NCBI GenBank assembly: GCA_030432715.1
Contig: JAUIML010000012.1
Location: forward strand, 1-33,241
Source of the DNA: Acidimicrobiia bacterium
GTDB lineage: Bacteria > Actinomycetota > Acidimicrobiia > Acidimicrobiales > Aldehydirespiratoraceae
Direction of reading: 5' to 3'
Length of the DNA stretch: 33,241 nt
Positions within the stretch are counted from its first letter, which is position 1, and each line of letters opens with the position of its first letter. The position numbers were made by a program, and so were the translations under genes. The notes beneath the pieces were generated by a model, which saw only the letters and a list, made by a program, of their open reading frames with translations, did not search any database and was not told the origin of the DNA. Shown here in pieces: positions 6,886-33,080 of this stretch.

Positions 6886-9800
6886 ATGCGCGCTGCTGAT
6901 GATCTGCCCCGTCGCGAGAATGGCCGCGTGGGCGGTCGCGGCCGAGTGGTCGCCGTCATCGCGGTGGTGGTGCTGATCTTCCTCGCCGCATCGCTTTCGG
7001 GGATCGCGAGCTTCTACACCGACTACCTCTGGTTCGACGCCCTCGACCGGGCGTCGGTCTGGCGTCAGGTCCTCGGCGCCAAGATCGCTCTGACATTGAT
7101 CTTCGGCGGGATCTTCTTCGTCTTCATGTGGCTCAACCTGTTTCTCGCCGACCGGGCGGCGCCGGCCTTCCGCCCCGCCGGGCCCGAAGAGGAACTGCTG
7201 GCTCGCTATCACGACGTGGTCGCCGGTCGGAAGACGCTGATCCGCACCGCCGTGTCGTTCGTGTTCGCGCTCATCGCCGCCGCCGGCGTCTCGAGCCGGT
7301 GGGAAGACTGGCTGCTGTTCACCAACCGGCAGGACTTCGGGATCACCGACGATCAGTTCGGCCGGGACGTCGGGTTCTACGTGTTCCAGCTTCCCTTCCT
7401 CAGCTTCGTGGTCGGGTGGGCGTTCGCCAGCTTCGTCATCATCTTCATCCTCACGGCGATCAACCACTATCTCAACGGGTCGATCCGCGTCACGGCCGTC
7501 GCCGGCAGCCGGGCGACCCCGACCGTGAAGGTCCACCTCTCCGCCATCCTCGCCGTGCTCGCCCTGATCAAGGCCGTCGACTACTGGCTCGACCGGTTCG
7601 AGCTCACGGTCTCGAGCCGGGGTGTGGTCGACGGAGCGCTCTACACCGACATCAAGGCCCAGCTCCCCGCGATCCATCTGCTGATCGCGATCTCGCTCGC
7701 CGCCGTCGTCCTCCTCGTGGTCAACCTGCGCCTCCGGGGTTGGACCATGCCGGTGCTCGCCGTCGGCCTGTGGGCGTTCACCGCCATTGTCGTCGGTGGG
7801 ATCTACCCGGCCTTCGTGCAGCGGTTCCAGGTCGAACCCAACGAGACCACCCGCGAGGCCGAGTTCGTCGATCGGAACATCCGGGCCACGACCTATGCGT
7901 TCGGGCTCGACGGCATCGAACAGCAGCAGTTCGACTACACCGACGAGCTCACGGCCGACCAGATCCGCGCCAACGCGGCGACCGTGGCCAACGCGCGTCT
8001 TCTCGACCCCGTTGCCGTGCACCCGACCTTCGAGCGGGAGCAGACCGAGCGCGACTTCTACCGGTTCGTCGGGGTCGACACCGATCCGAGCGACCCCAAC
8101 GCGGGCACGGCGCTCGATACCGATCGCTATCTGATCGACGGCGAGCTCCGCCAGGTCGTGGTCGGTGCCCGTGAGCTCCAGCTCGACAGCAACCTGAGCT
8201 GGGAGCGCGAGCACGTGCGGCTCACCCACGGCTACGGGTTGGCCATGGCGACGGCCAACACCCCGACCTCGGCCGGCAGTCCCGACTTCGTCGTGTCCGG
8301 TCTTCCCACGGCCGTCGACGAGTCGCTCGAGGTCACGGTGAATCGTCCGCAGCTCTACCACGGCGAGGACCTCGGCGGCTATGCCCTCGTCGACACGACG
8401 GTCAGCGAGATCGACTATGTCGACAGCGAGACCGGCGCCGACGTGCCCTTCCTCTACGACGGCTCCGGTGGTGTCGAGATGGGGTCGTTCATCCGGAAGG
8501 CCGCGTTCGCGCTGCGCTTCCGCCAGATCGACCCGCTGATCTCCAACTTCGTCGACGACAACACGCGGATCATCTACAACCGCGACGTCCACAACCGGGT
8601 GCAGGCGCTGGCCCCGTTCCTCGAGTTCGATGCCGATGCCTACCCGGTCATCGTCGATGGCGACATCTTCTACGTGATCGACGGCTACACGACATCGGAC
8701 CGGTTCCCCTACAGCCAGTCCAGCGAGAACGGACGGCTCACCGAGGGAGGGCTGTCCGGTTCGTCGTTCAACTATGTGCGCAACTCGGTCAAGGCGGTCG
8801 TCGACGCCTACGAGGGCACCGTCGCCTTCTACGTGATGCCGGGCGACGATCCGATCATCAGCGCCTGGCAGAGCGCGTTCCCGGCGCTCTTCTCGGAATT
8901 CGACGAGATGCCGCTCGCACTGCGAGACCACCTCCGGTACCCGCAGGATCTCTTCCGCGTGCAGACCAACATGTACGCCCGGTACCAGGTCGAGGATCCC
9001 GAGGCGCTCATCATCGGCACCGAAGCGTGGGCCGTCGCCCAGGACCCGGGCCGCACGGTGCGCGCCGGCGGCACCTCGGAGGAGTCGACCGACGAGTTCG
9101 GCGTCACCACCACGAGCGAGCGTCGGGTGAATCCCTACTACTCGCTGCTCCAGTTGCCGGGCGAGGAGGAGCCCTCGTTCGTGACGCTGCGGACGTTCGT
9201 TCCGTTCGCGGAGAACGACGACCGCAAGGAGCTCGAGGCCTTCATGGTGGGTGAGACCACCCCCGAGGGTGTGTCGCGTCTGGTGAGCTACGAGATGAAC
9301 AGCGCCTCCGCGCCCGGGCCGGTTCTCGTCGCCACGAGCATCGCCCAGAACGACGAGATCGCCCAGCTCCTCACCCTGCTCAACGCCAACGGTTCGACCG
9401 TCGAGTTCAGCGACGTGCTGCTGCTCCCGATCGACGACGCGATCCTCTGGGTGCGTTCGCTCTATGTCGCGGCCGAGGGCACCAGCGTGCCCACGCTCGA
9501 GAACGTCATCGTCTCGGTCGGCGAGGGCGAGCAACTGGCCATCGGGTCGACGCTCGAGGAGGCGCTGGAGAACCTGTTCCCGGGCGAGGAGTTCGGCACG
9601 GTCCTCGATCGGCCGGCCGGAGGCGCCGTGACGACGCCGCCGGTCACCGTGCCGCCGTCGACCGGCGACCCCGTGGAGCCGCCGCCCCCGAGCGACGGGT
9701 TGCCCGATTCGCTCGAGGATCTGGTGATCGAGATCGAAGAGCTCTGGCAGGCCTCCAACGAGGCGCTCGCCGAGGATCCCCCCGACCGAGTCGCCTCGGC

Positions 9801-9900
9801 CGAAGCCTTGGCCCGCATCGACGAGCTCCTGGCCCACAGCCGGACGCTCACCGGCACGGAGCCACCCGAGCCCGTCGATCCGGGTGAGGTCGAGAGCTGA
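6886..9900 (+). CDS. UPF0182 family large integral membrane protein
   Basis: 1004 residues, typical for the UPF0182 (DUF UPF0182, COG1615) family widespread in actinobacteria and cyanobacteria; the biochemical function is not established. After a short basic N-terminus there are about seven membrane segments within residues 20-310 (for example VVAVIAVVVLIFLAASLSGI and LTLIFGGIFFVFMWLNLFLA). Family-typical stretches are FYTDYLWFDALD, SSRWEDWLLFTN and DPQFGRDVGFYVFQLPF-like text. A large extracytoplasmic domain follows (about 320-920), with NxRATTYAFGLDGI and YPQDLFRVQTNMYARYQVEDPE. The C-terminus has a Pro/Val linker and an acidic helix. The next gene starts inside its stop codon (CTGA). Confidence 0.95.
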   Translation: MRAADDLPRRENGRVGGRGRVVAVIAVVVLIFLAASLSGIASFYTDYLWFDALDRASVWRQVLGAKIALTLIFGGIFFVFMWLNLFLADRAAPAFRPAGPEEELLARYHDVVAGRKTLIRTAVSFVFALIAAAGVSSRWEDWLLFTNRQDFGITDDQFGRDVGFYVFQLPFLSFVVGWAFASFVIIFILTAINHYLNGSIRVTAVAGSRATPTVKVHLSAILAVLALIKAVDYWLDRFELTVSSRGVVDGALYTDIKAQLPAIHLLIAISLAAVVLLVVNLRLRGWTMPVLAVGLWAFTAIVVGGIYPAFVQRFQVEPNETTREAEFVDRNIRATTYAFGLDGIEQQQFDYTDELTADQIRANAATVANARLLDPVAVHPTFEREQTERDFYRFVGVDTDPSDPNAGTALDTDRYLIDGELRQVVVGARELQLDSNLSWEREHVRLTHGYGLAMATANTPTSAGSPDFVVSGLPTAVDESLEVTVNRPQLYHGEDLGGYALVDTTVSEIDYVDSETGADVPFLYDGSGGVEMGSFIRKAAFALRFRQIDPLISNFVDDNTRIIYNRDVHNRVQALAPFLEFDADAYPVIVDGDIFYVIDGYTTSDRFPYSQSSENGRLTEGGLSGSSFNYVRNSVKAVVDAYEGTVAFYVMPGDDPIISAWQSAFPALFSEFDEMPLALRDHLRYPQDLFRVQTNMYARYQVEDPEALIIGTEAWAVAQDPGRTVRAGGTSEESTDEFGVTTTSERRVNPYYSLLQLPGEEEPSFVTLRTFVPFAENDDRKELEAFMVGETTPEGVSRLVSYEMNSASAPGPVLVATSIAQNDEIAQLLTLLNANGSTVEFSDVLLLPIDDAILWVRSLYVAAEGTSVPTLENVIVSVGEGEQLAIGSTLEEALENLFPGEEFGTVLDRPAGGAVTTPPVTVPPSTGDPVEPPPPSDGLPDSLEDLVIEIEELWQASNEALAEDPPDRVASAEALARIDELLAHSRTLTGTEPPEPVDPGEVES

Positions 9901-19591: not shown

Positions 19592-20689
19592 TCACCTGGC
19601 CGGATCGATGCCGACGTAGACGCGATCAGGGTCGTCGCCCTTCAGCACGGCCATGGCCTCCGACGCGTGCTCGAGGTCGAAGACATGGGTCCGTAGCGAG
19701 CCCAGGCCCGGATCGTCGCCCAACAGCTCGAGAGCCCGGTGATAGGCCGGCCAGCCGGCCGACCGGGCTCCCTGGATGCGGATCGCCCGCAGGACGACCC
19801 GGTCGACGTCGAGCGCTGCGCTGCGGCCCTGCTTGAGGCCGCCGAGCACGACGGTGCCGCCGTCGGCCACACAGTCGATCGCCTGGGAGACCGGCTCGAC
19901 CGCGCCGGCGCTGGTGTCGACGACCACGTCGACGCCGCGGCCGCCCGTCGCCTCGAGCACGGCCGCGGCGAGGTCGTCGGTGCCGATGTCGACCACGCGG
20001 TCGGCCCCGAGGTCGGTGGCGTGGCGCAGGCGCCGGTGGTCGTGGGGTGTGCCGGAGACGATCACGAGGCCGGCCCCGGCGGCGCGGGCGGCGACGACGG
20101 AGGCCAGTCCCCGCTGCCCGGCCCCGAGCACCACCACCGACTGGCCGGCACCGAGGCCCGACCGCCGAACCGTCCACTCGTGGGCGGCGCCGAGCGCGTT
20201 GAACAGGGTCGCCGTTCCGGGGTCGAGCCCGTCCGGGACGCGGTGGACCACCGACAGCGGATGCAGGGCCATGTGTTCCGACCAGCCGCCCCAGAGCATC
20301 GGTTCGGTCGACATGGGTACGAAGCCGTAGGCGAGCGGCCGGGTCGGCCAGCCGCGACACGACACGTATTCGCCGGTGAGGCAGGGCTGGCAGCTGCCGC
20401 AGGGGATGCTCGGTTCGACCGCCACGCGGTCGCCGACGGCCACCCCCCACCGCTGGGCCGTGGCCGCACCGATCTCCTCGATCACGCCGACGACCTCGTG
20501 GCCGAGGATCATCGGCCCGGCCGGCCAGCCGGACCCGGTGAACGACCCGTCGAACTGCTCGACATCGGTGCCACACAGGCCACACGCCTCGACCCTCAGC
20601 CACGCCCACTCCCCGTCGGGCAGCGGGGGGCGTTGGATTGTCTGGAGCTCGATCGCGCCCGGCCCGGTGAGTACCGCGGCGCGGGTCAT
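19592..20689 (-). CDS. Zinc-dependent alcohol dehydrogenase (MDR superfamily)
   Basis: 365 residues from ATG 20689. Medium-chain zinc dehydrogenase with catalytic zinc ligands Cys39 (CGLCGTD) and His64-Glu65 (LGHEVVG), and structural zinc ligands Cys97, Cys100, Cys103 and Cys111 (CGSCQPCLTGEYVSC). The Rossmann motif is VVVLGAGQRGLAS and the substrate-lobe closing segment is DVVVDTSAGA. The enzyme oxidises an alcohol with NAD(P). It is the last gene of a three-gene operon. Its ATG overlaps the amidohydrolase stop (TGATG, 20687-20691), giving translational coupling. The DHHRRL sequence after beta-2 does not settle the cofactor. Confidence 0.93.
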   Translation of the reverse strand: MTRAAVLTGPGAIELQTIQRPPLPDGEWAWLRVEACGLCGTDVEQFDGSFTGSGWPAGPMILGHEVVGVIEEIGAATAQRWGVAVGDRVAVEPSIPCGSCQPCLTGEYVSCRGWPTRPLAYGFVPMSTEPMLWGGWSEHMALHPLSVVHRVPDGLDPGTATLFNALGAAHEWTVRRSGLGAGQSVVVLGAGQRGLASVVAARAAGAGLVIVSGTPHDHRRLRHATDLGADRVVDIGTDDLAAAVLEATGGRGVDVVVDTSAGAVEPVSQAIDCVADGGTVVLGGLKQGRSAALDVDRVVLRAIRIQGARSAGWPAYHRALELLGDDPGLGSLRTHVFDLEHASEAMAVLKGDDPDRVYVGIDPAR

Positions 20690-21948
20690 CACCAGCTCTC
20701 GGGGTCGGCGATGACCGACTCGGGCACCGGGTGGCGATAGAGCTCCGACGCGTTCTCCCAGGTGATCCGGCGGCGGTCCGCCTCGGGAAGATCGCCGATC
20801 TCGCGGGACACGACCTCCTGCGTCCGGGGCCAGGTCGAATCGCAGTGGGGGTAGTCGGACTCGAGCAGGATGTGGTCGACGCCGATCACGTCGCGCTGGC
20901 GGAAGGCCGAGGGGTCCTCGACCGCACAGAAGTAGAAGTTGCGGCGGAAGACCTCGCTCGGGGTGAGATCGGAGGTCCAGGTGCCGTACATGTCGTGGTA
21001 CGACAGCATGTGGTCGAGACGGTCGATGAGCCCCGCCACCCAGCCGATGCCACCTTCCGAGAGGCAGATCTTGAGGTCGGGATGGCGGACCGGGGCCAGC
21101 GAATAGAGCCAGTCGACGGCGGCGTAGATCGCGTAGGCGAAGAACAGCACACCGACGACGTCGGGCGGGGCGTCCTCCGAGGTCGAGGGTGAGGCGCCGG
21201 CCGAGCCGATGTGGAGGTTGATCACCGTCCCGGTCTCGGCGCAGGCCTGGAGGAACGGTTCCCAGTGCCCTGAGTGGAGGGTCGGGAAGCCGAGCTTGTC
21301 CGGCGCTTCGGAGAACGTGACGGCCTTGAACCCGCGGTCCGCGTTCTCGCGGATCATGTCGGCCGCGACCTCGGGGTCGAGCAGCCACGGGATCTGGCAC
21401 GGGATGATGCGATCGGGATAGGGCCCGGCCCAGGACTCGAGATGCCAGTCGTTCCAGGCCCGCACGGTCGCCATGGCCAGCTCGCGGTCGTTGGTGACGG
21501 TCTGGAGGCGCTGGCCGGCGAAGCCGGGCAGGAACGACGGGAAGTTGACCGACGCGTAGACGCCGTTGAGGTCCATGTCGGCGACCCGGGTGTGGATGTC
21601 CCACGCGCCCCGGCGCATCTCGTCGAAGCGGGTCGGTTCGAACCCGTACTCCGACACGGGCCGCCCGACCACGGCGTTGAAGCCGACGTTGGGGAGCTCG
21701 TTGCCGTCGTAGAGCCACGTCTGCCGGCCGTCGTCGGTCTCGACCACCCGCGGGGCACGGTCGACCAGATGGGCCGGGATTCGGCCCTCGAAGGTGTCGG
21801 GTGGCTCCACCACGTGGTCGTCGGCGGAGATCACGAGGTGGTGCCGAGGGGCTCGCTCGGGTTCTGGGAGGAAGGTGACCTGCCGGTCCTCGCCGGTCGA
21901 TGCCTGGGTGAAGCTCAGGTCCTGGGCGAGGTCATCGAGGCTGCGCAT
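20689..21948 (-). CDS. Amidohydrolase family protein (amidohydrolase-2/ACMSD-like metal-dependent hydrolase or decarboxylase)
   Basis: 419 residues from ATG 21948. A TIM-barrel amidohydrolase of the ACMSD-like branch, which contains non-oxidative decarboxylases and hydrolases of aromatic or unsaturated acids. The metal site begins with Asp43-x-His45 (SADDHVVEPPD). A later barrel His lies in NLHIGSAG (about 240), a further one in the LDHMLSYHD segment, and the C-terminal Asp in LLESDYPHCDSTWP. The N-terminal 30 residues are extra. It is the middle gene of the operon with a class II aldolase (15 bp upstream) and an alcohol dehydrogenase (overlapping). The substrate is unknown; decarboxylation is an alternative to hydrolysis. 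Confidence 0.9.
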   Translation of the reverse strand: MRSLDDLAQDLSFTQASTGEDRQVTFLPEPERAPRHHLVISADDHVVEPPDTFEGRIPAHLVDRAPRVVETDDGRQTWLYDGNELPNVGFNAVVGRPVSEYGFEPTRFDEMRRGAWDIHTRVADMDLNGVYASVNFPSFLPGFAGQRLQTVTNDRELAMATVRAWNDWHLESWAGPYPDRIIPCQIPWLLDPEVAADMIRENADRGFKAVTFSEAPDKLGFPTLHSGHWEPFLQACAETGTVINLHIGSAGASPSTSEDAPPDVVGVLFFAYAIYAAVDWLYSLAPVRHPDLKICLSEGGIGWVAGLIDRLDHMLSYHDMYGTWTSDLTPSEVFRRNFYFCAVEDPSAFRQRDVIGVDHILLESDYPHCDSTWPRTQEVVSREIGDLPEADRRRITWENASELYRHPVPESVIADPESW

Positions 21949-21963: not shown

Positions 21964-22779
21964 TCAGTCGAGAACGTCGGGTTCGGTGCGGATCAGCTGG
22001 CGGGCCAGTCCTTCGAAGTAGATGTCGGCGCCGCGCTCCATGAGCGAGACCTTCATGCCGGCGACGAGGCGGGGGTCGAGCGGGATCGGGTCGCGGCCGC
22101 TGCGTTGGACGTCGAGCGACATGCGGCACACCCGGTCGATGCTCGCTGCCCGGTACGTCGCCTGCTCGATCGTCTCGCCGGTGATGATGACGCCGTGGCT
22201 CGCGAGGACGACCACGCTCGCGTCCCCGATGCGAGCCGCAAGATCGGCACCCAGTTCGGCGCTGTCGACCTCGCCGGTGTACTCCGCCACGAGACCGAGG
22301 TCGCCGTCGAACATGCTGGCGGTCTGGTTGACCAGGTCGGGGAGGATCCCCATCGCCGCCAGCACACACACGTGGTACGGGTGGTTGTGGATCACCACCC
22401 GGGCGTCGGGGCGGACGCGATGCAGTTCTGTGTGGATGTGGATCGCCGGTGTCACGTCCCACTTCCCGGCGACGATGTTGGCGTCGGCGTCGACCTCACA
22501 GATGTCGCTGGCCGCGACCTCGCGCCACCACAGACCCCAGGGATTCACCAGCATGGTGTCGGTGCCCTCGCGTTGCCAGGTGATGTGGCCGGCGAGGTTC
22601 TCGGCGAATCCCTCGATCGCGAGCCAGCGGAAGGCCAGCGCGAGCTTCTGCTCGTCGGTGAGATCGCGGCCGATGCCGGGATTGATGCTCGGTGACCAGA
22701 CGGCATAGCCGCCCTCGCGCACGGCGGTGGTCGGGTCGGCGGCGTTATCGTCGTGGGTGCTGGTGACAGGAGACGTCAT
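21964..22779 (-). CDS. Class II aldolase/adducin family protein
   Basis: 271 residues from ATG 22779. Zinc-dependent class II aldolase fold: FAENLAGHITWQ (about 58-69) for the phosphate/carboxylate loop, zinc ligands His131 and His133 (VVIHNHPYHV) and His195 (LASHGVIITG). Family members cleave C-C bonds (fuculose phosphate, ribulose phosphate) or decarboxylate aromatic acids. The absence of sugar-phosphate context and the presence of an amidohydrolase and an alcohol dehydrogenase suggest a non-sugar substrate (inference). First gene of the operon. Transcription probably starts at the ATG itself, since AATCAT ends 7 nt upstream with a perfect TTGACA 17 bp before it. Confidence 0.92.
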   Translation of the reverse strand: MTSPVTSTHDDNAADPTTAVREGGYAVWSPSINPGIGRDLTDEQKLALAFRWLAIEGFAENLAGHITWQREGTDTMLVNPWGLWWREVAASDICEVDADANIVAGKWDVTPAIHIHTELHRVRPDARVVIHNHPYHVCVLAAMGILPDLVNQTASMFDGDLGLVAEYTGEVDSAELGADLAARIGDASVVVLASHGVIITGETIEQATYRAASIDRVCRMSLDVQRSGRDPIPLDPRLVAGMKVSLMERGADIYFEGLARQLIRTEPDVLD

Positions 22780-22815
22780 CTTCTATATGATTTGCGTTTA
22801 ACGCCGACCTGTCAA
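22763..22815. promoter_or_regulatory. Overlapping divergent promoters with a palindromic operator candidate
   Basis: Plus strand: GTGACA (22763-22768), 17 bp, TATGAT (22786-22791), driving the GntR gene with a leader of about 43 nt. Minus strand: TTGACA (22815-22810), 17 bp, AATCAT (22792-22787), driving the aldolase operon with its ATG 7 nt after the -10. The two -10 boxes overlap. The perfect palindrome GCGTT-T-AACGC (22794-22804) lies at the plus start site and inside the minus spacer, so one bound dimer could affect both. The GntR regulator encoded alongside is the obvious candidate. Confidence 0.6.
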
Positions 22816-22840: not shown

Positions 22841-23695
22841 ATGAAGAACTCTTCGGCGGCCGGCGCGAAGGCATCGGGATCCGACCCACTCCTCGCCGTC
22901 CCCTCGATACGCGGCGACCGAGGGGCCGGTGGCCGCTATCGGGCCCCTCACGTGGCCGACCTGGTCGTGGCGGAGCTTCGACGCCGGATCCTCGACGGCG
23001 AGTTGAAGGACGGCGACGAGTTGCCACGCCAGGAGGACCTGCTCCTGGAGTTCGGGGTTTCCAAACCCTCCATGCGTGAGGCCCTGCGGATCCTCGAATC
23101 CGAAGGCCTGCTGTCCGTGCGGCGGGGCAAGCTCGGTGGTGCGGTCGTGCACCGACCCGGCGAGGGCATGGCGGCCTACACGCTCGGCATGGTGCTGCGC
23201 ACGATGGGCGCACCGGTCGACGACGTGTCGATGGCGCTCAACATGCTCGAGCCCCAGTGCGTCGCCCTGTGCGCGAGCCGGCCGGACCGAGCCGAGACGG
23301 TCATCCCGCGGTTGCGGGAACTGCAGGAGGAGGCCGCGGCCTGCATCGACGACGTGCGCCAGTTCACGATCGTCTCCCGACAGTTCCACGAGGAGCTGGT
23401 CAACCTCTGCGGAAGCCCCACGTTGACGCTCGTCGTCGGCGCGCTCGAAGCGGTTTGGTCGGCCCATGCCGACGCGTGGGCCGAGATCCACGCCGACCAC
23501 GGCGACTACCCCGACGCCGACTACCGCCGCCAAGGACTCGACGACCACGCGGTGCTGCTCGATCTCATCGAACGGGGAGATGTGGCCGGCGCGGTGGCCG
23601 AGGCTCACCGCCATCTGGAGTGGTCGCCGGTCTACACGATCGACGAGGACCACTCCGTCTTCCCGAGCCTGCTGTCGGAGCGCCCCGCCCCATGA
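22841..23695 (+). CDS. GntR family transcriptional regulator (FadR/FCD subfamily)
   Basis: 284 residues from ATG 22841. A Gly/Ala/Arg-rich N-terminal extension (1-36) precedes a winged helix-turn-helix (about 37-108: ADLVVAELRRRILDGELKDGDELPRQEDLLLEFGVSKPSMREALRILESEGLL, given here as landmarks ADLVV, ELP and SMREALRILE) with the wing RRGKLGGAVV. An FCD ligand domain follows (about 118-265), with metal-type residues around RQFHEELVNLCG and AHRHLEW. Such regulators respond to an organic acid, often the substrate of the adjacent genes. It is divergent from the aldolase operon across overlapping promoters, and its stop overlaps the dioxygenase start (ATGA). Confidence 0.93.
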   Translation: MKNSSAAGAKASGSDPLLAVPSIRGDRGAGGRYRAPHVADLVVAELRRRILDGELKDGDELPRQEDLLLEFGVSKPSMREALRILESEGLLSVRRGKLGGAVVHRPGEGMAAYTLGMVLRTMGAPVDDVSMALNMLEPQCVALCASRPDRAETVIPRLRELQEEAAACIDDVRQFTIVSRQFHEELVNLCGSPTLTLVVGALEAVWSAHADAWAEIHADHGDYPDADYRRQGLDDHAVLLDLIERGDVAGAVAEAHRHLEWSPVYTIDEDHSVFPSLLSERPAP

Positions 23696-24510
23696 GTACT
23701 GCGGACACGACCGATGGAGAGGTCGTGGCCGAGCGGGTGCGCGAGGACGGGTGGGCGATCGTGCCCGACGTGATCGATCCAGCGGCCGTCGAACGGCTCC
23801 GGGCCACGGTCGACGCAACGATGGCCACCGACGAGACACCGTTCGGGGCCAACACGTTCCTCGGGCGCGACACCCGCCGGGTCTTCAACCTGCTGGCCCA
23901 CGATCCCGCCTTCGCGGCCGTGCCGATCGATGCCACCGTGCTGCCCATCGTCGAAGCTGTGCTCGACCCGGAACTCCTGCTGTCGTCGCTCACTGCCATC
24001 GAGACCCACCCGGGGCAGGACGCCCAGCCGCTCCATGCCGACGACGGGTCGATCTCGCTGGCCCGCCCCCACCCGCCCTTGGCGGTCGTGGCCCTGTGGG
24101 CGCTCAGCGACTTCACGGAGGAGAACGGGGCGACCCGGCTCGTGCCGGGAAGTCATCGGGAGTCCCGTCGACCGCGCCCCGGCGAGGCCGCAGACACGAT
24201 CAGCGCGGAGATGTCGGCCGGCAGTGTGTTGATCTACAACGGCTCGCTCTGGCACGGCGGCGGTCCCAACCGGTCCGACGCGTTGCGACAGTTCATCGTC
24301 TGCAACTATTGCGCCGGGTGGGTCCGCCAGGAGGAGAACCAGCTCCTCGCCCTCGACCGGTCGTATGTCGAGACGCTGCCGCCCCGCCTGCGTCGGCTCG
24401 TCGGCTACGGCGTCTACCGTGGACTGCTCGGCCATGTGGCGGGCGACGATCCCGGCTCGTGGGTCGACGACCACATCGAGACCGACCTCGTCTGGAAACG
24501 GATGCGCTGA
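23692..24510 (+). CDS. Phytanoyl-CoA dioxygenase (PhyH) family oxygenase
   Basis: 272 residues from ATG 23692, overlapping the GntR stop (ATGA), so the two are translationally coupled. PhyH-type Fe(II)/2-oxoglutarate dioxygenase with an intact triad: His115 and Asp117 (LHADDGS) and His188 (LWHGGGPNRS). Arg199 is the likely 2-oxoglutarate ligand. Family landmarks are DGWAIVPDVID near the start and ENGATRLVPGSH (about 144-155). It hydroxylates an unactivated carbon of an acid, alcohol or CoA ester. The coupling to the regulator suggests its substrate or product belongs to the regulated pathway. Confidence 0.93.
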   Translation: MSTADTTDGEVVAERVREDGWAIVPDVIDPAAVERLRATVDATMATDETPFGANTFLGRDTRRVFNLLAHDPAFAAVPIDATVLPIVEAVLDPELLLSSLTAIETHPGQDAQPLHADDGSISLARPHPPLAVVALWALSDFTEENGATRLVPGSHRESRRPRPGEAADTISAEMSAGSVLIYNGSLWHGGGPNRSDALRQFIVCNYCAGWVRQEENQLLALDRSYVETLPPRLRRLVGYGVYRGLLGHVAGDDPGSWVDDHIETDLVWKRMR

Positions 24511-24525: not shown

Positions 24526-26190
24526 TCAGCCGAACCGACGGGCGACGTCGTCGGCGATCTGGCCCTTGGCGATCTTCCCGCCGCTCGACCGGGGGAGCGC
24601 ATCGAGCACGACGAGCGCTTCCGGCCGGATCTCTTTGGGTGTGTCGCGGGCGGCGAGGTGCTCGAGCAGGTCGTCGAGGGTGAGTGACGCCCCTTCGTGG
24701 AGTTCGACATAGGCGCAGACGCGCTCGCCGAAGACCTCGTCGGGGATCGCCACCGCCGCGCTGAGCCCCACGCTCGGGTGGGTGTTGACCTCGTCCTCCA
24801 CCTGGGACGCCGAGATGTTCTTGCCGCCGCGGATGATGAAGTCGGAGATGCGGCCGGTGACGGTGAGGTAGCCGTCGTCGTCGATGGCACACAGATCGCC
24901 CATGAGCATCCAGCCGTCGGCGGTGTAGAGCCCGGCGTTGGCCTCCCGGTCGAGATAGCCGAGGCAGGTGGCCGGACCGCGGCAGGCGGGACGCCCCTCG
25001 CCGGCCGTGCCGAGAGACTCGACCCCGTCGGCGTCGAAGAGGCGGACCTGCATCTCCGGCACCACCCGGCCGGCGGTGCGAAGGCGCTGTTCGACCGTGT
25101 CGGTCGGTCGGGTGCCGGACAGCACTCCCGTTTCGTTGGATCCGTAGAACTGGAGCACGGCACAGCCGCTGCGTTCCTCGAACTCCCGTGCCCGGTGCTC
25201 GGGCACGGCCTCGCCGCCGGTGAACATCGAGCGGAGCGAGCCGAGGTCACGGTCGTCGAAGCTCGGCTCGTTGAGCATCATCAGGAACTGGGTGCTCACG
25301 CAGCCGAGGACGGACACTCGGTGCTGCTCGATGAGGTCGAGGGTGCGTGCTGCGTCGAAGCGGCGGCTGATCACCGTGGGGGTGCCGAGCACGATCGGGG
25401 TGAAGTGCGCGGTCCACAGACCGAAGCCGAAGGGGGCGGGAAGGAGCGACATGAAGATGTCGTCGTGGCTCATGTTGCCGTGGCGACAGGCGACCTGGTG
25501 GAAGTAGAGCCAGCGGTTCTGGAAGTGCAGCACACACTTCGGGAGACCGGTGGTGCCCGAGGTCGAGTTGATGAACGAGAGGTCGTCGGGGCCGATGCGG
25601 CGGGCGTCGAGGTCGCCGGGCAGGGGCGGGTCGACGGTCTCCCCGTCGACCGTGATGGCGCCCTCCGCGTCGGCCTCGAAGACCGGCAGCTCGATGTGGG
25701 TGTCGATCGTGATGCCGAGATCCTCGATCTCGGACCGGAAGGATGCGGCCGGTGCCCCGTTGTGCTCGGCGAGGGTGATGAGGGTGGTGGCCTCGGTGAG
25801 GCCGAGCAGGTGGGCGACCTCCCGGCTGTTGGCCCGGGCGCCGAGACCCACCGTGACGATCCCCGCCTTCTCGAGCCCGAGGTAGGCGGCGTGCACGGTG
25901 GCGGTGTCGGGGAGCAGCACGCCTATGCGGGTGCCGGGTTCGAGCCCGAGGGCGACGATGACCGCCGCGATCCGGTCGCTGGCCCGGTCGAGGCCCGCCC
26001 AGGTGAGGGTGCCGTCGTCGGCGATGTAGGCCGGTGCGTCGGGGCGGTTCGCCGCGTGGCGGCGGAGGTGGTCGACCAGCGCGTCGTCGCTCCACCAGCC
26101 GGCGGCGCGATACGCGGCGGCGTCGTCGGGGTCGACCGCGTTGCGGAACCCCGGGCCCCCGCCCGCCGATTCGACGAAAGATTGAATCAT
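24526..26190 (-). CDS. Acyl-CoA ligase/synthetase (AMP-binding, ANL superfamily)
   Basis: 554 residues from ATG 26190. It activates a carboxylic acid to acyl-AMP and then acyl-CoA. Motifs in order: phosphate loop NSTSGTTGLPK (208-218), acyl-pocket region with GFGLWTAHFTP, adenine motif FYGSNETG, YTADGWMLMGDL with the ribose Asp, the hinge TGRISDFIIRGGKNIS, and catalytic Lys539 in PRSSGGKIAKG. The text resembles cyclohexanecarboxylate- and fatty-acid-CoA ligases, but the substrate cannot be assigned. It is convergent with the PhyH gene (15 bp) and divergent from the ABC importer. TATCCT lies only 4 nt before the ATG, so the true start may differ slightly. Confidence 0.94.
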   Translation of the reverse strand: MIQSFVESAGGGPGFRNAVDPDDAAAYRAAGWWSDDALVDHLRRHAANRPDAPAYIADDGTLTWAGLDRASDRIAAVIVALGLEPGTRIGVLLPDTATVHAAYLGLEKAGIVTVGLGARANSREVAHLLGLTEATTLITLAEHNGAPAASFRSEIEDLGITIDTHIELPVFEADAEGAITVDGETVDPPLPGDLDARRIGPDDLSFINSTSGTTGLPKCVLHFQNRWLYFHQVACRHGNMSHDDIFMSLLPAPFGFGLWTAHFTPIVLGTPTVISRRFDAARTLDLIEQHRVSVLGCVSTQFLMMLNEPSFDDRDLGSLRSMFTGGEAVPEHRAREFEERSGCAVLQFYGSNETGVLSGTRPTDTVEQRLRTAGRVVPEMQVRLFDADGVESLGTAGEGRPACRGPATCLGYLDREANAGLYTADGWMLMGDLCAIDDDGYLTVTGRISDFIIRGGKNISASQVEDEVNTHPSVGLSAAVAIPDEVFGERVCAYVELHEGASLTLDDLLEHLAARDTPKEIRPEALVVLDALPRSSGGKIAKGQIADDVARRFG

Positions 26191-26275
26191 CTAGAGGATA
26201 CTTGCACGACACTGCGGCAAAGGGAAGAATGACGCCCGACGGGGCACGATCAGCCGCCGTTGCTTGGGGGAACAC

Positions 26276-27109
26276 GTGGTCGAAGGTACGTCGGCGCCGA
26301 TCAAGATCGCGGCCCGGGGAGTGGAACGGCATTTCGGGGCCGACCCGGGCACCGCCGTGCACGCCCTCGGACCGTTCGACCTCGATGTGGCCGAGGGCGA
26401 GTTCGTTTGTGTCGTCGGGCCGTCGGGCTGCGGCAAGTCCACCTTCCTGCGGATCGTGGCCGGTCTCCTGCGCCCGTCGAAGGGCGACATCGAGCTCTAC
26501 GCGGAAGCCAGCTCGGAAACCCCGGTGGCCATGGTCTTCCAGGACTACTCGATCTATCCGTGGAAAACCGTCGAGCGCAATGTCAGCTTCGGACTCGAAC
26601 TGCGCGGCGTGTCGAAGAAGGAAGCCGTGGAGCGGGGCCGTCACTGGCTGGAGCGTCTCGGTCTCGCCGACTTCGCCAAGGCGTATCCCGACACGCTGTC
26701 GGGAGGGATGCGTCAGCGAGTGTCGATCGCCCGGGCCCTCACCGTCGAGCCCGAGATCCTCCTGATGGACGAACCCTTCGCCGCGCTCGACGCCCAGCTC
26801 CGCCAGGTGCTCCAGGACGAACTGCTCGACATCTGGCAATCCGAGGCCCGGCGGACCGTCGTGTTCATCACCCACAGCCTCGAGGAAGCCATCGTGCTGG
26901 GCGACCGCGTGGTGGTCATGTCGGCCCGGCCCGGCACCCTCGTGCAGTCGGTGGACGTGCCCTTCGCCCGGCCGCGAACCCCCGAGCTGCGGGCGCGGGC
27001 CGAGTTCAACGACTTCAAGAACGAGTTGTGGCAGCTCCTCAAGGGAGAGGTCGAGCACTACATGGAAGCCGTCCGGGCCACCGGCGCCACCGACGGGGGG
27101 GCACGATGA
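26276..27109 (+). CDS. ABC importer ATP-binding protein (nitrate/sulfonate/taurine type)
   Basis: 277 residues from GTG 26276, preferred over TTG 26264 because GGGGGA (26266-26271) precedes it at 5 nt. All nucleotide-binding motifs are present: Walker A GPSGCGKST (48-56), Q-loop Gln89 (VFQDYSIYPWKTV), signature LSGGMRQ (141-147), Walker B ILLMDEP (161-167) and the switch His in VFITHS. The YPWKTV after the Q-loop is typical of SsuB/TauB-like ATPases. It energises the importer formed with the permease (ATGA overlap) and the binding protein downstream. Confidence 0.95.
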   Translation: MVEGTSAPIKIAARGVERHFGADPGTAVHALGPFDLDVAEGEFVCVVGPSGCGKSTFLRIVAGLLRPSKGDIELYAEASSETPVAMVFQDYSIYPWKTVERNVSFGLELRGVSKKEAVERGRHWLERLGLADFAKAYPDTLSGGMRQRVSIARALTVEPEILLMDEPFAALDAQLRQVLQDELLDIWQSEARRTVVFITHSLEEAIVLGDRVVVMSARPGTLVQSVDVPFARPRTPELRARAEFNDFKNELWQLLKGEVEHYMEAVRATGATDGGAR

Positions 27110-27954
27110 GCGACTCGCCGCAGGTCGTCCTGCGTCGCACGGCCTCCGATGCCGAGAAGAACCCGGGCGCGACGGCACGACGGCGCCGCATGATCGAGGT
27201 CGGCCTGGCCATCCTCGGACCACTGGTGTTCCTCGGCCTCTGGGAAGTGTGTGTCCGCAACGACTGGTGGTTGGACGGACGCCTGATCTCGTCGCCCTGG
27301 GAGATCATCACCTCCGAGCGTCTCCGCGAGGCCGAAGTGTGGGAAGCCGTGTGGGTCACCACCGTACGGATGCTCAAGGGGTTCGTCATCGGGACCGTGC
27401 TCGGCCTCATTCTCGGTGTGGCGATGGGCATCAACCGCTATGCCCGCGCCGCGTTGAACAGCACCCTCACCGCGCTCTACACGGTGCCGAAGATCGCCCT
27501 CCTCCCGGTGTATCTCCTGCTCTTCGGGTTCGACGAGGCGCCGCGGGTCTACATGATCGCGACGGTGGTCTTCTTCTTCGTCTGGATCTACACGATGGCG
27601 CCGATCATGGCGGTGCCGATGGGCTATCGCGAGGCTGCGGCGTCGTTCAACGCCACGGGCTGGCAGATGTTTCGCCATGTGCTCTGGCCGGCCGCGCTGC
27701 CCCAGATCTTCGTGGGCCTGCGGGTCTCCGCCGGCGTCGCCGTGCTGATGGTGATCGCCGTCGAGCTGATCCTTCCGCGCGACGGCATCGGCTATTTCGT
27801 CAACCGCGGTCGAGAACTGGGCCTACCCGACAACACCTTCCTCGGCGTCTTGCTCGCTGCGCTCCTCGGCATCGTCTTCGTCGGCGTCGTGCGCCAGATC
27901 GGGCGCTGGATGACGCCGTGGGCTCCCGAGGACAACAGCCCGGGCCAGATCTGA
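27106..27954 (+). CDS. ABC importer permease (SsuC/TauC-like)
   Basis: 282 residues; ATG overlaps the ATPase stop (ATGA). About six membrane segments follow a charged N-terminus. The EAA loop that contacts the ATPase is visible at about 175-200 (YREAAASFNATGWQMFRHVLWPAALP region), as in the BinPDT family of nitrate, sulfonate, taurine and pyrimidine-precursor importers. Two copies would form the membrane channel. It is followed after 64 bp by the binding protein. Confidence 0.94.
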   Translation: MSDSPQVVLRRTASDAEKNPGATARRRRMIEVGLAILGPLVFLGLWEVCVRNDWWLDGRLISSPWEIITSERLREAEVWEAVWVTTVRMLKGFVIGTVLGLILGVAMGINRYARAALNSTLTALYTVPKIALLPVYLLLFGFDEAPRVYMIATVVFFFVWIYTMAPIMAVPMGYREAAASFNATGWQMFRHVLWPAALPQIFVGLRVSAGVAVLMVIAVELILPRDGIGYFVNRGRELGLPDNTFLGVLLAALLGIVFVGVVRQIGRWMTPWAPEDNSPGQI

Positions 27955-28018: not shown

Positions 28019-29281
28019 ATGAATACCACACCGAAGAGGATGCTCTTGCGGCTCCTCGCCATCGCCTTGACGCTCGGACTGGTCGCGGCCGCGTGCGGCG
28101 ACGACGACAGTGACGACGCAGGCGATGGCACGACCACGACGGCTGCGCCCGACGACGGCGACATGGACGATGGCGACGGCGACATGGACGACGGTGACGG
28201 CGACATGGACGACGGCGACATGGACGACGGCGACATGGACGGCACGAGCGGCTGCGCGGAGAACGGTCTGACCGACCCGTCCGACCTCTCGCCCGACCGC
28301 ACGATCGCCCGTTGCGAGCCGGGCTACCCCCAGCCGCAACCGCTCGAGGAGCGGGCCACGATCAGGCTGGGCAACCGGTTCCGGGCGGAGTTCGTCGCCC
28401 CGATCCTGCTGGCCGAGCACTACGGCCTCTTCGACGAGGAGAACATCGATGTCGAGTGGGTCGAGCTGAGCCTCACCGACAGCATGGTTCCGCTCGACGA
28501 CTGCTCGGTCGACTTCGCCATCGGCGGCACCGAAGCCTCGTTCCACAACGGTGTGGCCCAGGGCCTCGACGTCAAGATGGTGTTGGGCAACTACTTCCCG
28601 CCCGACGCCGGTGACATCACCACGCCGCAGACCGGTCTGTGGGCCCGTCGCGATGTGTTCAGCGACCCGGCCAACCCCGACATCACCGAACTGAAGGGCG
28701 CTCGCGTCGCATCGGCGGTGGGTCTGGGATCCGTCGTGATCTACCCGATGGCCCAGGCGTTCGACGAGGCCGGCTTCTCCCTGCTCGACATGGAGTTCGA
28801 GCAGATCTCCGCTTCCGAGCAGTTCATTGCGCTGGAGAACAACGCCGTGCAGGCCGCGTGGATGCTCGATCCCTACTGGATCGAGGCTGCGGCCGACCCG
28901 GACAACTACGTGCTGCTGGTGAGCCAGACGCCGGGCGAGCCGCTCGGTGGCGTCTACGCCGGTCCGTGTGTGCGCACCGGTGATCGCCAGGAGGCCGGCC
29001 AGGCGTTCGTGCGGGCCTACATCCGTGCGGTCAACACCTACCTGCCGCCTGACTACCAGGACGACGCCGAGGTCATGGCCGCGCTGGCCGAGGAGACCGG
29101 TGCGCCGGTCGAGTCGCTGATCGAGACCCCGGGTCTCTACTTCGACTGGGAGATGCGCACCAACACGTCGCAGAACGCGCAGAAGTACTTCATCGAGTTC
29201 GACACCGTCGAATACGACGAGGTCCTCACCGATGAACAGGTGATGGACCGCTCGATGTACGAAGCCGTCGTCGGCGGCTGA
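28019..29281 (+). CDS. ABC importer substrate-binding lipoprotein (SsuA/NMT1-like)
   Basis: 420 residues from ATG 28019, preceded by CAGGAGGGG. The signal peptide (RMLLRLLAIALTLGLVAAAC) ends in a lipobox with Cys at about 27. An Asp-rich tandem-repeat linker (about 45-75) holds the domain off the membrane. The periplasmic-binding fold has typical SsuA/THI5-like text: RFRAEFVAPILLAEHYGLFDEENIDVEWVEL, DFAIGGTEASFHNG, LKGARVASAVG and QAAWMLDPYW. It captures the substrate for the importer. The ligand is unknown; related proteins bind sulfonates, nitrate, phthalate-like acids or pyrimidine precursors. Confidence 0.92.
   Translation: MNTTPKRMLLRLLAIALTLGLVAAACGDDDSDDAGDGTTTTAAPDDGDMDDGDGDMDDGDGDMDDGDMDDGDMDGTSGCAENGLTDPSDLSPDRTIARCEPGYPQPQPLEERATIRLGNRFRAEFVAPILLAEHYGLFDEENIDVEWVELSLTDSMVPLDDCSVDFAIGGTEASFHNGVAQGLDVKMVLGNYFPPDAGDITTPQTGLWARRDVFSDPANPDITELKGARVASAVGLGSVVIYPMAQAFDEAGFSLLDMEFEQISASEQFIALENNAVQAAWMLDPYWIEAAADPDNYVLLVSQTPGEPLGGVYAGPCVRTGDRQEAGQAFVRAYIRAVNTYLPPDYQDDAEVMAALAEETGAPVESLIETPGLYFDWEMRTNTSQNAQKYFIEFDTVEYDEVLTDEQVMDRSMYEAVVGG
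28151..28246 (+). repeat. Asp-rich tandem repeat in the lipoprotein linker
   Basis: Repeats of GACGACGGCGACATG and GACGACGGTGACGGCGACATG encode DDGDM and DDGDGDM units, about six in total, immediately after the Thr-rich start of the mature lipoprotein. Near-identical copies point to slippage expansion. The product is a highly acidic flexible spacer. Confidence 0.85.
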
Positions 29282-31847: not shown

Positions 31848-33080
31848 TCATTGGTCCCGGGCGGCGACGGGGCCCTCGGCGCTGTGGACGGGCACACCGT
31901 CGCGAAGGCGGGTCGTGTCGACCTCGGTGGTCCCCACGCCGGTCGCGTAGGGGATCGTGGGCTGCCCTGCGTAGATGCCGACGTCGGACGAGGTGTAACG
32001 GATGCCCATCGCCAGCCGAGGTTCACTGGTGCGATTGGGGTACGAGCCGTGGAGGTTGTTGCTGCTGAAGAGGAGGCACTCGCCCGCCCGCATCGGGTAG
32101 TGGGCGGGCTCGATCGACTCGTAGAGATCCGGGAGCAGGCGCAGGGCGACGTCGAAGGCGACCTGGCCGGCGAGGAAGATGTCGCCCGTGTAGCGAAGGG
32201 CGGTGAGGGCGTTCCAGCGATCGGCCCGATCGAAGTGCATCACGAACCCGAGGCGGTCGCGGGAGAAGCGGCGGATCAGGGTGTCGAGGCGGACGTCGGA
32301 ATGGCTACCGGGGATGATCCGCAGACAGGCCGTGTCCACATCGACGTCTTCCAGCGCGATCCAACAGCTGACGTTGGCCATCGCTGCGGGCATGCCGGGT
32401 GGCGGGGTGAGGGCAGGGAGGTCGCCGTCTTCGGTGAACGTCGTCGCCGCGTGCCAGAAGGTGCCCTTGGTGTCGGGTTCGACCACGAACATCTGGGTCC
32501 GCCAGGCGACGACGTCGTCGCCGATGAGACTGGCGAGGCGTTGGGCCAACACCGGGTGCTGGGCGATCGCCCGGATCTCGGGCACGTTGCGTTCCTGCCA
32601 GATGGCTCCGTGGTTGATGGCCCACAGGCCGTTGCGCTTGAGCTCGTCGGCCGCGGCCTTGCCGATGGCGTAGTCCCCGTGCCAATCGGCGGCGTGGGTC
32701 TGCACGACGAAGGCTCGATGGGCCGCGGCTTCTTCGGGAGTGAGGAGGGGCAACGGACCCAGGACCCCGTCGCGTTCGTAGGTCGCGACCTGCTCGGCGG
32801 TCAGGTGGTCGCCTCCGTGCGACTCCTTCGTTCGCGTCCCCCGCGTCGGGTTGGCGACCTGGGCGAACTCCTCGAGCCCGGCGGTCACGTCGAACGGGCG
32901 GCCCCGGAGTCGACGGACCAGCCAGTAGAGCGGCCGCAGGACGCCGATGAGGTTCATCAGGATCACCCGTTCGATCCGCTGGTAGCGGGTCAGGTGCAAC
33001 TGCTCGATCGCGGTGGCGATCGGCACGTGGCCCTCGTAGAGCCGGCTGAGCCTCGCCGCGTCGGCGTCGTCGTCGGGCAT
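31848..33080 (-). CDS. PhyH/SyrB2-like Fe(II)/2-oxoglutarate enzyme with H-x-A motif (putative non-haem iron halogenase)
   Basis: 410 residues from ATG 33080. Residues 1-90 are an extra N-terminal region with a hydrophobic, Arg-bordered helix (about 37-60). The catalytic domain starts at LTAEQVATYERDGVLGPLP. The proximal iron motif reads FWHAATTF: His210, Ala211, Ala212. The Asp normally found two residues after the His is Ala. The distal His344 lies in NNLHGSYPN and Arg355 in EPRLAMGIRY. An Ala or Gly at this Asp position is the hallmark of Fe(II)/2OG halogenases such as SyrB2 (WHQADTF, as I recall it), where chloride takes the vacant site. WRTQMF, ACLRIIPGSH and HGSYP also resemble SyrB2. 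Halogenase activity is inference; an inactive or altered enzyme is the alternative. No carrier protein gene is near. Confidence 0.85.
   Translation of the reverse strand: MPDDDADAARLSRLYEGHVPIATAIEQLHLTRYQRIERVILMNLIGVLRPLYWLVRRLRGRPFDVTAGLEEFAQVANPTRGTRTKESHGGDHLTAEQVATYERDGVLGPLPLLTPEEAAAHRAFVVQTHAADWHGDYAIGKAAADELKRNGLWAINHGAIWQERNVPEIRAIAQHPVLAQRLASLIGDDVVAWRTQMFVVEPDTKGTFWHAATTFTEDGDLPALTPPPGMPAAMANVSCWIALEDVDVDTACLRIIPGSHSDVRLDTLIRRFSRDRLGFVMHFDRADRWNALTALRYTGDIFLAGQVAFDVALRLLPDLYESIEPAHYPMRAGECLLFSSNNLHGSYPNRTSEPRLAMGIRYTSSDVGIYAGQPTIPYATGVGTTEVDTTRLRDGVPVHSAEGPVAARDQ

Follow-up and report, generated by a model that had tools for sequence, protein, structure and literature searches.

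Interlocked divergent promoters and a predicted TATC-N8-GATA operator for an FCD-domain GntR regulator in an Acidimicrobiia bacterium

Results

The window (the whole stretch of 33,241 nucleotides that was analysed) is contig C291 of a 3.68-Mb draft assembly of 310 contigs that is 83% complete; the window itself has a GC content of 69%. It carries a gene for a GntR-family regulator, followed by a gene for a PhyH-family protein, and both diverge from an aldolase-amidohydrolase-dehydrogenase operon (Table 1), with 61 bp between the aldolase and GntR start codons. A second divergent gap, at 26185-26280, lies between the AMP ligase and an ABC uptake operon that includes an SsuA-like binding protein. 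The window frames run against Pfam included no second DNA-binding regulator. Elsewhere in the window, another PhyH-family gene lies at 31851-33080, close to the window end, and a UPF0182 protein of 1004 aa, with a strong Pfam match (2.6e-238), is encoded at 6886-9900.

Table 1. Genes and predicted control elements around the GntR gene, in window coordinates.
Feature	Position	Strand	Remarks
Zinc-type medium-chain dehydrogenase	19592-20689	-	NCBIfam tdh 6e-42, 143.9 bits, below the cut-off of 458
Amidohydrolase_2 protein	20689-21948	-	Pfam 1.4e-29
Class II aldolase/adducin-family protein	21964-22779	-	Pfam Aldolase_II 1.2e-38
Plus promoter GTGACA-17-TATGAT for GntR-PhyH	22763-22791	+	-35 GTGACA 22763-22768; -10 TATGAT 22786-22791
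Predicted GntR operator 1, CATCTTCTATATGATT (minus strand AATCATATAGAAGATG)	22777-22792		Best window match, 13.61
Minus promoter TTGACA-17-AATCAT for the aldolase operon	22787-22815	-	-35 TTGACA 22815-22810; -10 AATCAT 22792-22787
Palindrome GCGTTTAACGC	22794-22804		Within the minus spacer, at the predicted plus start
GntR-family regulator, FCD domain, FadR subfamily	22841-23695	+	284 aa; Pfam FCD 1.3e-16, GntR 2.2e-16
PhyH-family protein	23692-24510	+	Pfam PhyH 2.3e-31; start overlaps the GntR end
AMP-binding acyl-CoA ligase	24526-26190	-	Pfam AMP-binding 1.1e-67; start codon within predicted operator 2
Predicted GntR operator 2, AATCATCTAGAGGATA (minus strand TATCCTCTAGATGATT)	26185-26200		Second best window match, 13.58
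ABC transporter ATPase, first in the operon that diverges from the AMP ligase	26276-27109	+	Pfam ABC_tran 4.7e-31 (frame from 26264); start picked by eye
ABC transporter permease	27106-27954	+	Pfam BPD_transp_1 3.9e-18 (frame 26260-27951); start picked by eye
Substrate-binding protein, SsuA-like	28019-29281	+	NCBIfam SsuA_fam 1.9e-08, 33.9 bits, below the cut-off of 163.5

An earlier note on this DNA had described two divergent promoters that interlock at their -10 boxes (22763-22815), and this arrangement is confirmed. The opposed -35/-10 pairs match sigma-70 promoters at the level of sequence, and their -10 boxes overlap by 5 bp (22787-22791). The plus -35 sits within the aldolase coding sequence, the predicted plus start is at about 22798 and the minus spacer spans 22793-22809; the minus -10, AATCAT, matches A2 and T6 of TANNNT and lacks its first T. 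The 33-kb window holds two such promoter matches in all, exactly this interlocked pair. Dinucleotide shuffles of the window gave a mean of 1.2 matches, and an overlapping opposite pair in 3 of 200, so the pair is an unusual feature, unlike the palindrome by itself (see below). The geometry also supports the suggestion, made in the same note, that RNA polymerase would occupy one promoter at a time, the two being mutually exclusive.

A GntR orthologue with this junction is present in three of the six other genomes of the genus (G025, G028 and G029; 77-81% identical). In G030 just the end of the GntR gene was found, at a contig edge; G026 has only a relative of 33% identity, and G027 gave no match at 1e-20. 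The alignment of the junction shows no change in the block GTCATCTTCTATATG or in the minus -35, the latter being kept in all three genomes, each of which has at most one base changed in the minus -10 region. Of the three, one (G029) retains the plus -35 GTGACA with its spacing unchanged, and G025 and G028 lack it. In G029 (locus L086, 7400-7700) the aldolase gene is absent at the locus (18 kb compared), and the amidohydrolase gene is immediately preceded by the promoter block, the operator described below and a relict ATG.

Because the minus -10 ends just 7 nt before the aldolase ATG (AATCAT begins 13 bp before it) and no Shine-Dalgarno sequence was seen by eye before this codon, the aldolase mRNA is probably leaderless. 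The ligase gene, and the aldolase gene on contig C19 of genome G583, can be read with the same 7-nt spacing, and the window's aldolase and ligase mRNAs both probably start at the ATG or 1-2 bases away. Leaderless genes are frequent in Actinobacteria, according to excerpts of two studies (PMC3160421, PMC3898074). The genes here would resemble them in their -10-like box, which lies about 12 bp ahead of the start codon, and in showing no Shine-Dalgarno sequence to the eye; they would differ in that a predicted operator overlaps both the -10 and the start codon.

We searched for a regulator site in the 350 bp upstream of 30 GntR homologues, 41-63% identical and all from outside the window's genus. 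Matches came from 11 of the 298 genomes searched in the order and from 11 of the 395 in the class, counting the window's own. One region (L068) was dropped as a near copy, which left 29, and the palindromic motif search was run without any sequence from the window's genus; the pattern TATC-N8-GATA had, however, first been spotted by eye with the window site in view, and the motif search came afterwards. The motif returned from the 29 regions was TATCATtTAaATGATA, with a family consensus of about TATC-N8-GATA. Its log-likelihood was 100.5, against 34.9-41.5 for eight block-shuffled sets. A site with a posterior above 0.66 was found in 18 of the 29 upstream regions and a confident site was missing in the other 11; the distance from a confident training site to the start of the GntR alignment downstream of it ranges from 24 to 268 bp. 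A search without forced symmetry gave closely similar motifs, tATCaTntAAATcTTA ranking first and TATCATgTaaAtGATa third, in a form for which no shuffle control was made.

When the motif was scanned across the window (about 33,000 positions), the two best matches fell on the aldolase and ligase starts (Table 1), and the next scored 6.7. For the score of the two best matches (13.6 each), an order-1 model predicts about 4e-4 occurrences in the window, and the two gaps at their own composition would give 2.5e-4; the summed two-hit score was reached by 1 of 3000 column-permuted motifs. Since both gaps are AT-rich and 664 of 3000 permuted motifs also placed their best two hits in them, only the score level is informative and not the placement of the top two. 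A looser pattern allowing 3 mismatches was uninformative overall, with 59 matches against 61 for its reversed control.

Predicted operator 1 is the sole strong site between the aldolase and GntR starts, at the aldolase edge of the gap, and covers the aldolase start codon together with the minus and plus -10 boxes. It differs at 0, 0 and 1 of 16 positions in G028, G025 and G029, respectively; this conservation is less telling, as -10 boxes and a start codon would stay conserved regardless. Predicted operator 2 covers the start codon of the AMP ligase and borders the gap that separates this gene from the divergent ABC transporter operon. The element recurs at the ligase start in G025, G028, G029 and G030, and forms a perfect 16-bp inverted repeat in G029; in G030 (locus L087) the ligase and ABC ATPase genes are arranged as in the window. 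The site thus stands at the aldolase and ligase heads in G025 and G028, and at the ligase head in G029 and G030. Perfect 16-bp inverted repeats occur at loci L090 (TATCTTCTAGAAGATA) and L086 (AATCATCTAGATGATT), and all the differences between them are mirror-paired. In all five genomes ligase codon 2 (Ile), which lies within the element, reads ATT. No other of the 94 Ile codons in six window cluster genes is ATT, and elsewhere in the ligase gene ATT occurs once in G029, once in G030 and never in the other three genomes. A/T-rich codons near start codons have other known causes, and a general A/T preference there could contribute to this codon.

The pattern ATCNTNTANANGAT matches two places in the assembly, which are the sites at 22777 and 26185, against one for its reversed control. 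This pattern was composed after several of its sites had been seen, so its counts are supporting rather than independent. Across 15 genomes searched it occurs in 10, at 21 places, with no match in G026, G027, G138, G052 and G329; 13 of the 21 places are at examined GntR-cluster loci (counting all three on contig C29 of G190) and 8 lie outside them, among them the one place that each of G457 and G118 has. Before cluster genes outside the training set, the motif scores 13.2-16.4 at the sites of the genus, 12.9 at the aldolase head of G583:C19 and 10.9 upstream of the AMP ligase of G138. On G190:C29 (L112, 2635-17874), five sites scoring at least 12.7 stand before different open frames around the GntR homologue, four of them outside the training set (12.7-17.4) and one within it, which likely marks a larger regulon. 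The sites upstream of the GntR genes of G138, G218, G052 and G190:C29 belonged to the training set.

The motif has exceptions. The closest GntR outside the genus (L062/L088, 63% identical) has no confident site, its best match scoring 2.3; this holds for 1.5 kb upstream of the GntR-PhyH pair concerned (L088, 9339-10923, on G583:C124). At the aldolase locus L095 the best score in 11 kb was 7.4, and a GntR paralogue of the window's own genome (46% identical; L013, on G000:C120), which lies beside another AMP ligase, has no strong motif copy (7.9). By the same 350-bp upstream test, none of 12 distant named relatives from Nocardia, Rhodococcus, Actinomadura and Tomitella (34-40% identity) has a site of at least 10 (best 9.6), so by this measure the motif does not reach that far. 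As a background control, the whole loci of distant named relatives gave one match of at least 10 and none of at least 12 in 103 kb. That control left out L027 and L028 (a Firmicutes MAG and an Erysipelotrichaceae MAG); with these added there were 17 matches of at least 10, 5 of at least 12 and 3 of at least 13 in 119 kb.

The GntR protein has an N-terminal GntR winged helix-turn-helix (HTH; PF00392, 59.7 bits, cut-off 27) and a C-terminal FCD domain (PF07729, 61.6 bits, cut-off 24.3), the architecture of the FadR subfamily. The motif found de novo lacks the GT/AC boxes of the TKGT/ACMA operator consensus. We carried the HTH numbering of a published survey of the family over to this protein through the consensus of the domain. 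On this presumed mapping, position 28 is acidic in the window protein (within PRQED) and in 29 of the 30 homologues (Gly in L036), and position 40 is Ser in the window protein. Excerpts of the survey (Suvorova et al., PMC4494728) give Arg as the most frequent residue at position 28 in the FadR subfamily, which differs from the case here, and link Arg at this position with G, Asp with a G/C pair (Asp-C), and Ser at position 40 with G/C. An acidic position 28 could fit a TATC site without GT; with Ser at position 40, which goes with G/C in the survey, the protein does not settle the matter. A proline in the recognition helix, at one time taken as an argument from the protein side, was dropped, as in the survey numbering Pro occupies position 39 and Ser position 40.

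The earlier note had proposed that a GntR dimer could bind the palindrome GCGTT-T-AACGC, said to coincide with the plus start site and to fall in the minus spacer; GCGTTTAACGC is indeed there. A perfect 5-1-5 palindrome is expected 0.11 times per 53-bp span, and there are 84 in the 33-kb window. Because inverted repeats with arms of 5 and loops of 0-4 are expected 0.6 times in such a span (1 was observed), the palindrome alone is weak evidence. Of its 11 bases, 2 are changed in G028, 2 in G025 and 5 in G029, and its symmetry drops to 3 of 5 in G028 and G025. The G029 counterpart, GTGCTTTGCAC, has two mirror-paired changes and 4 of 5 mirror matches, which may be chance. Searched as a regulon marker, GCGTTNAACGC occurs at five places in the assembly and has no second copy on this contig, before a cluster gene or elsewhere; the four other copies, on other contigs, all lie within open stretches of 284-691 codons, and it was rejected as a marker. 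The motif search did not return the palindrome.

Discussion

The palindrome is probably not the main operator, and on comparative evidence the predicted operator moves from 22794-22804 to 22777-22792, with a second at 26185-26200. What stands of the proposed switch is the control itself, in that the aldolase operon and the GntR gene with PhyH are both probably under GntR control. We put at about 0.8 the probability that this FCD-domain GntR protein is a repressor whose operator is the non-canonical TATC-N8-GATA, and that it closes the promoters of the aldolase and of regulator/PhyH at the same time, as well as that of the ligase. The junction would then control the divergent genes through a single operator that they share. 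The FadR-subfamily GntR would bind, as a dimer, the 16-bp imperfect inverted repeat CATCTTCTATATGATT, and because this site covers both -10 boxes and the aldolase ATG, the bound dimer would keep RNA polymerase off both promoters. The aldolase-amidohydrolase-dehydrogenase operon would thereby be repressed and GntR-PhyH autorepressed at once. The copy at 26185-26200 may act likewise on the AMP-ligase promoter, and perhaps on the divergent ABC operon. A pathway metabolite on the FCD domain would release GntR, and the cluster would be expressed. As the aldolase and ligase mRNAs are probably leaderless, one 16-bp element would serve as operator, as part of the -10 and as start codon. A GntR switch at the divergent promoters is, in these terms, likely.

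Alternatively, there may be two operators, TATC-N8-GATA for GntR and the variable palindrome, which either a second regulator would bind or GntR itself would use as a weak accessory site, tuning one promoter. Weaker half-sites adjacent to GntR-family sites are reported in the survey excerpts (PMC4494728), and the symmetry at 22794-22804 is mostly retained in G029 despite its changed sequence; it is partly lost in G025 and G028, however, such palindromes are common in the window, and no frame given to Pfam encodes a second DNA-binding regulator. We consider this arrangement unlikely. Less likely still is that 22777-22792 is conserved merely as two -10 boxes overlapping the aldolase start codon, with no regulator bound. 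All three elements are predicted there and AT-rich permuted motifs often choose the same gaps, but the motif was learned elsewhere, from sites at varied distances from the GntR genes, it scores equally at the ligase start, its pattern is rare in the assembly, and the perfect repeats of L090 and L086 differ by mirror-paired changes alone. That GntR binds the palindrome instead is very improbable: it is a perfect repeat that contains GT-N3-AC at a spacing typical of FadR-subfamily sites (PMC4494728, in excerpts) and keeps some symmetry in G029, but it varies in all three sister genomes, does not fit the outer T and K of TKGT/ACMA, recurs only within open stretches and was not recovered by the motif search.

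The preferred reading, with TATC-N8-GATA as the shared operator, has partial parallels among known regulators. In the survey excerpts (PMC4494728), FadR-subfamily sites normally bear TKGT/ACMA boxes, with BioR and NanR named as exceptions, so the missing boxes do not exclude membership of the subfamily. The same source describes single-site divergons, in which one site, at about mid-gap, serves two divergent operons. Like FadR, PdhR, LldR and ExuR, the protein here combines a GntR HTH with an FCD domain, in what would be a divergon with a single palindromic site predicted for both operons; unlike theirs, the predicted operator has no TKGT/ACMA box and lies over a start codon, not at mid-gap. 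BioR (TTATMKATAA, PMC4494728) is likewise a FadR-subfamily member with an AT-rich inverted repeat devoid of GT/AC boxes, a likeness in the published motif, and its half-site spacing differs. In NCBIfam the GntR protein matches NanR best (77.4 bits, cut-off 260), and NanR is also among its five sequence matches in the PDB (6on4), yet NanR binds direct TGGTATAW repeats (PMC4494728), whereas the predicted site here is an inverted repeat. Among the literature titles and abstract openings listed, none named an operator of this kind.

More broadly, we lean, if only slightly, towards an FCD GntR clade in this bacterial class with its own operator code, TATC-N8-GATA. At leaderless catabolic genes the half-sites of a composite 16-bp element would provide the -10 and the start codon, and one dimer would block two opposed promoters. 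The analysis corrects the site that would otherwise have been chosen for mutation at the bench. It offers a concrete predicted operator code for FCD GntR regulators that departs from the FadR-subfamily consensus and whose targets can be searched for by sequence, and it shows how compact the control of leaderless genes could be, with operator, -10 and start codon in one element.
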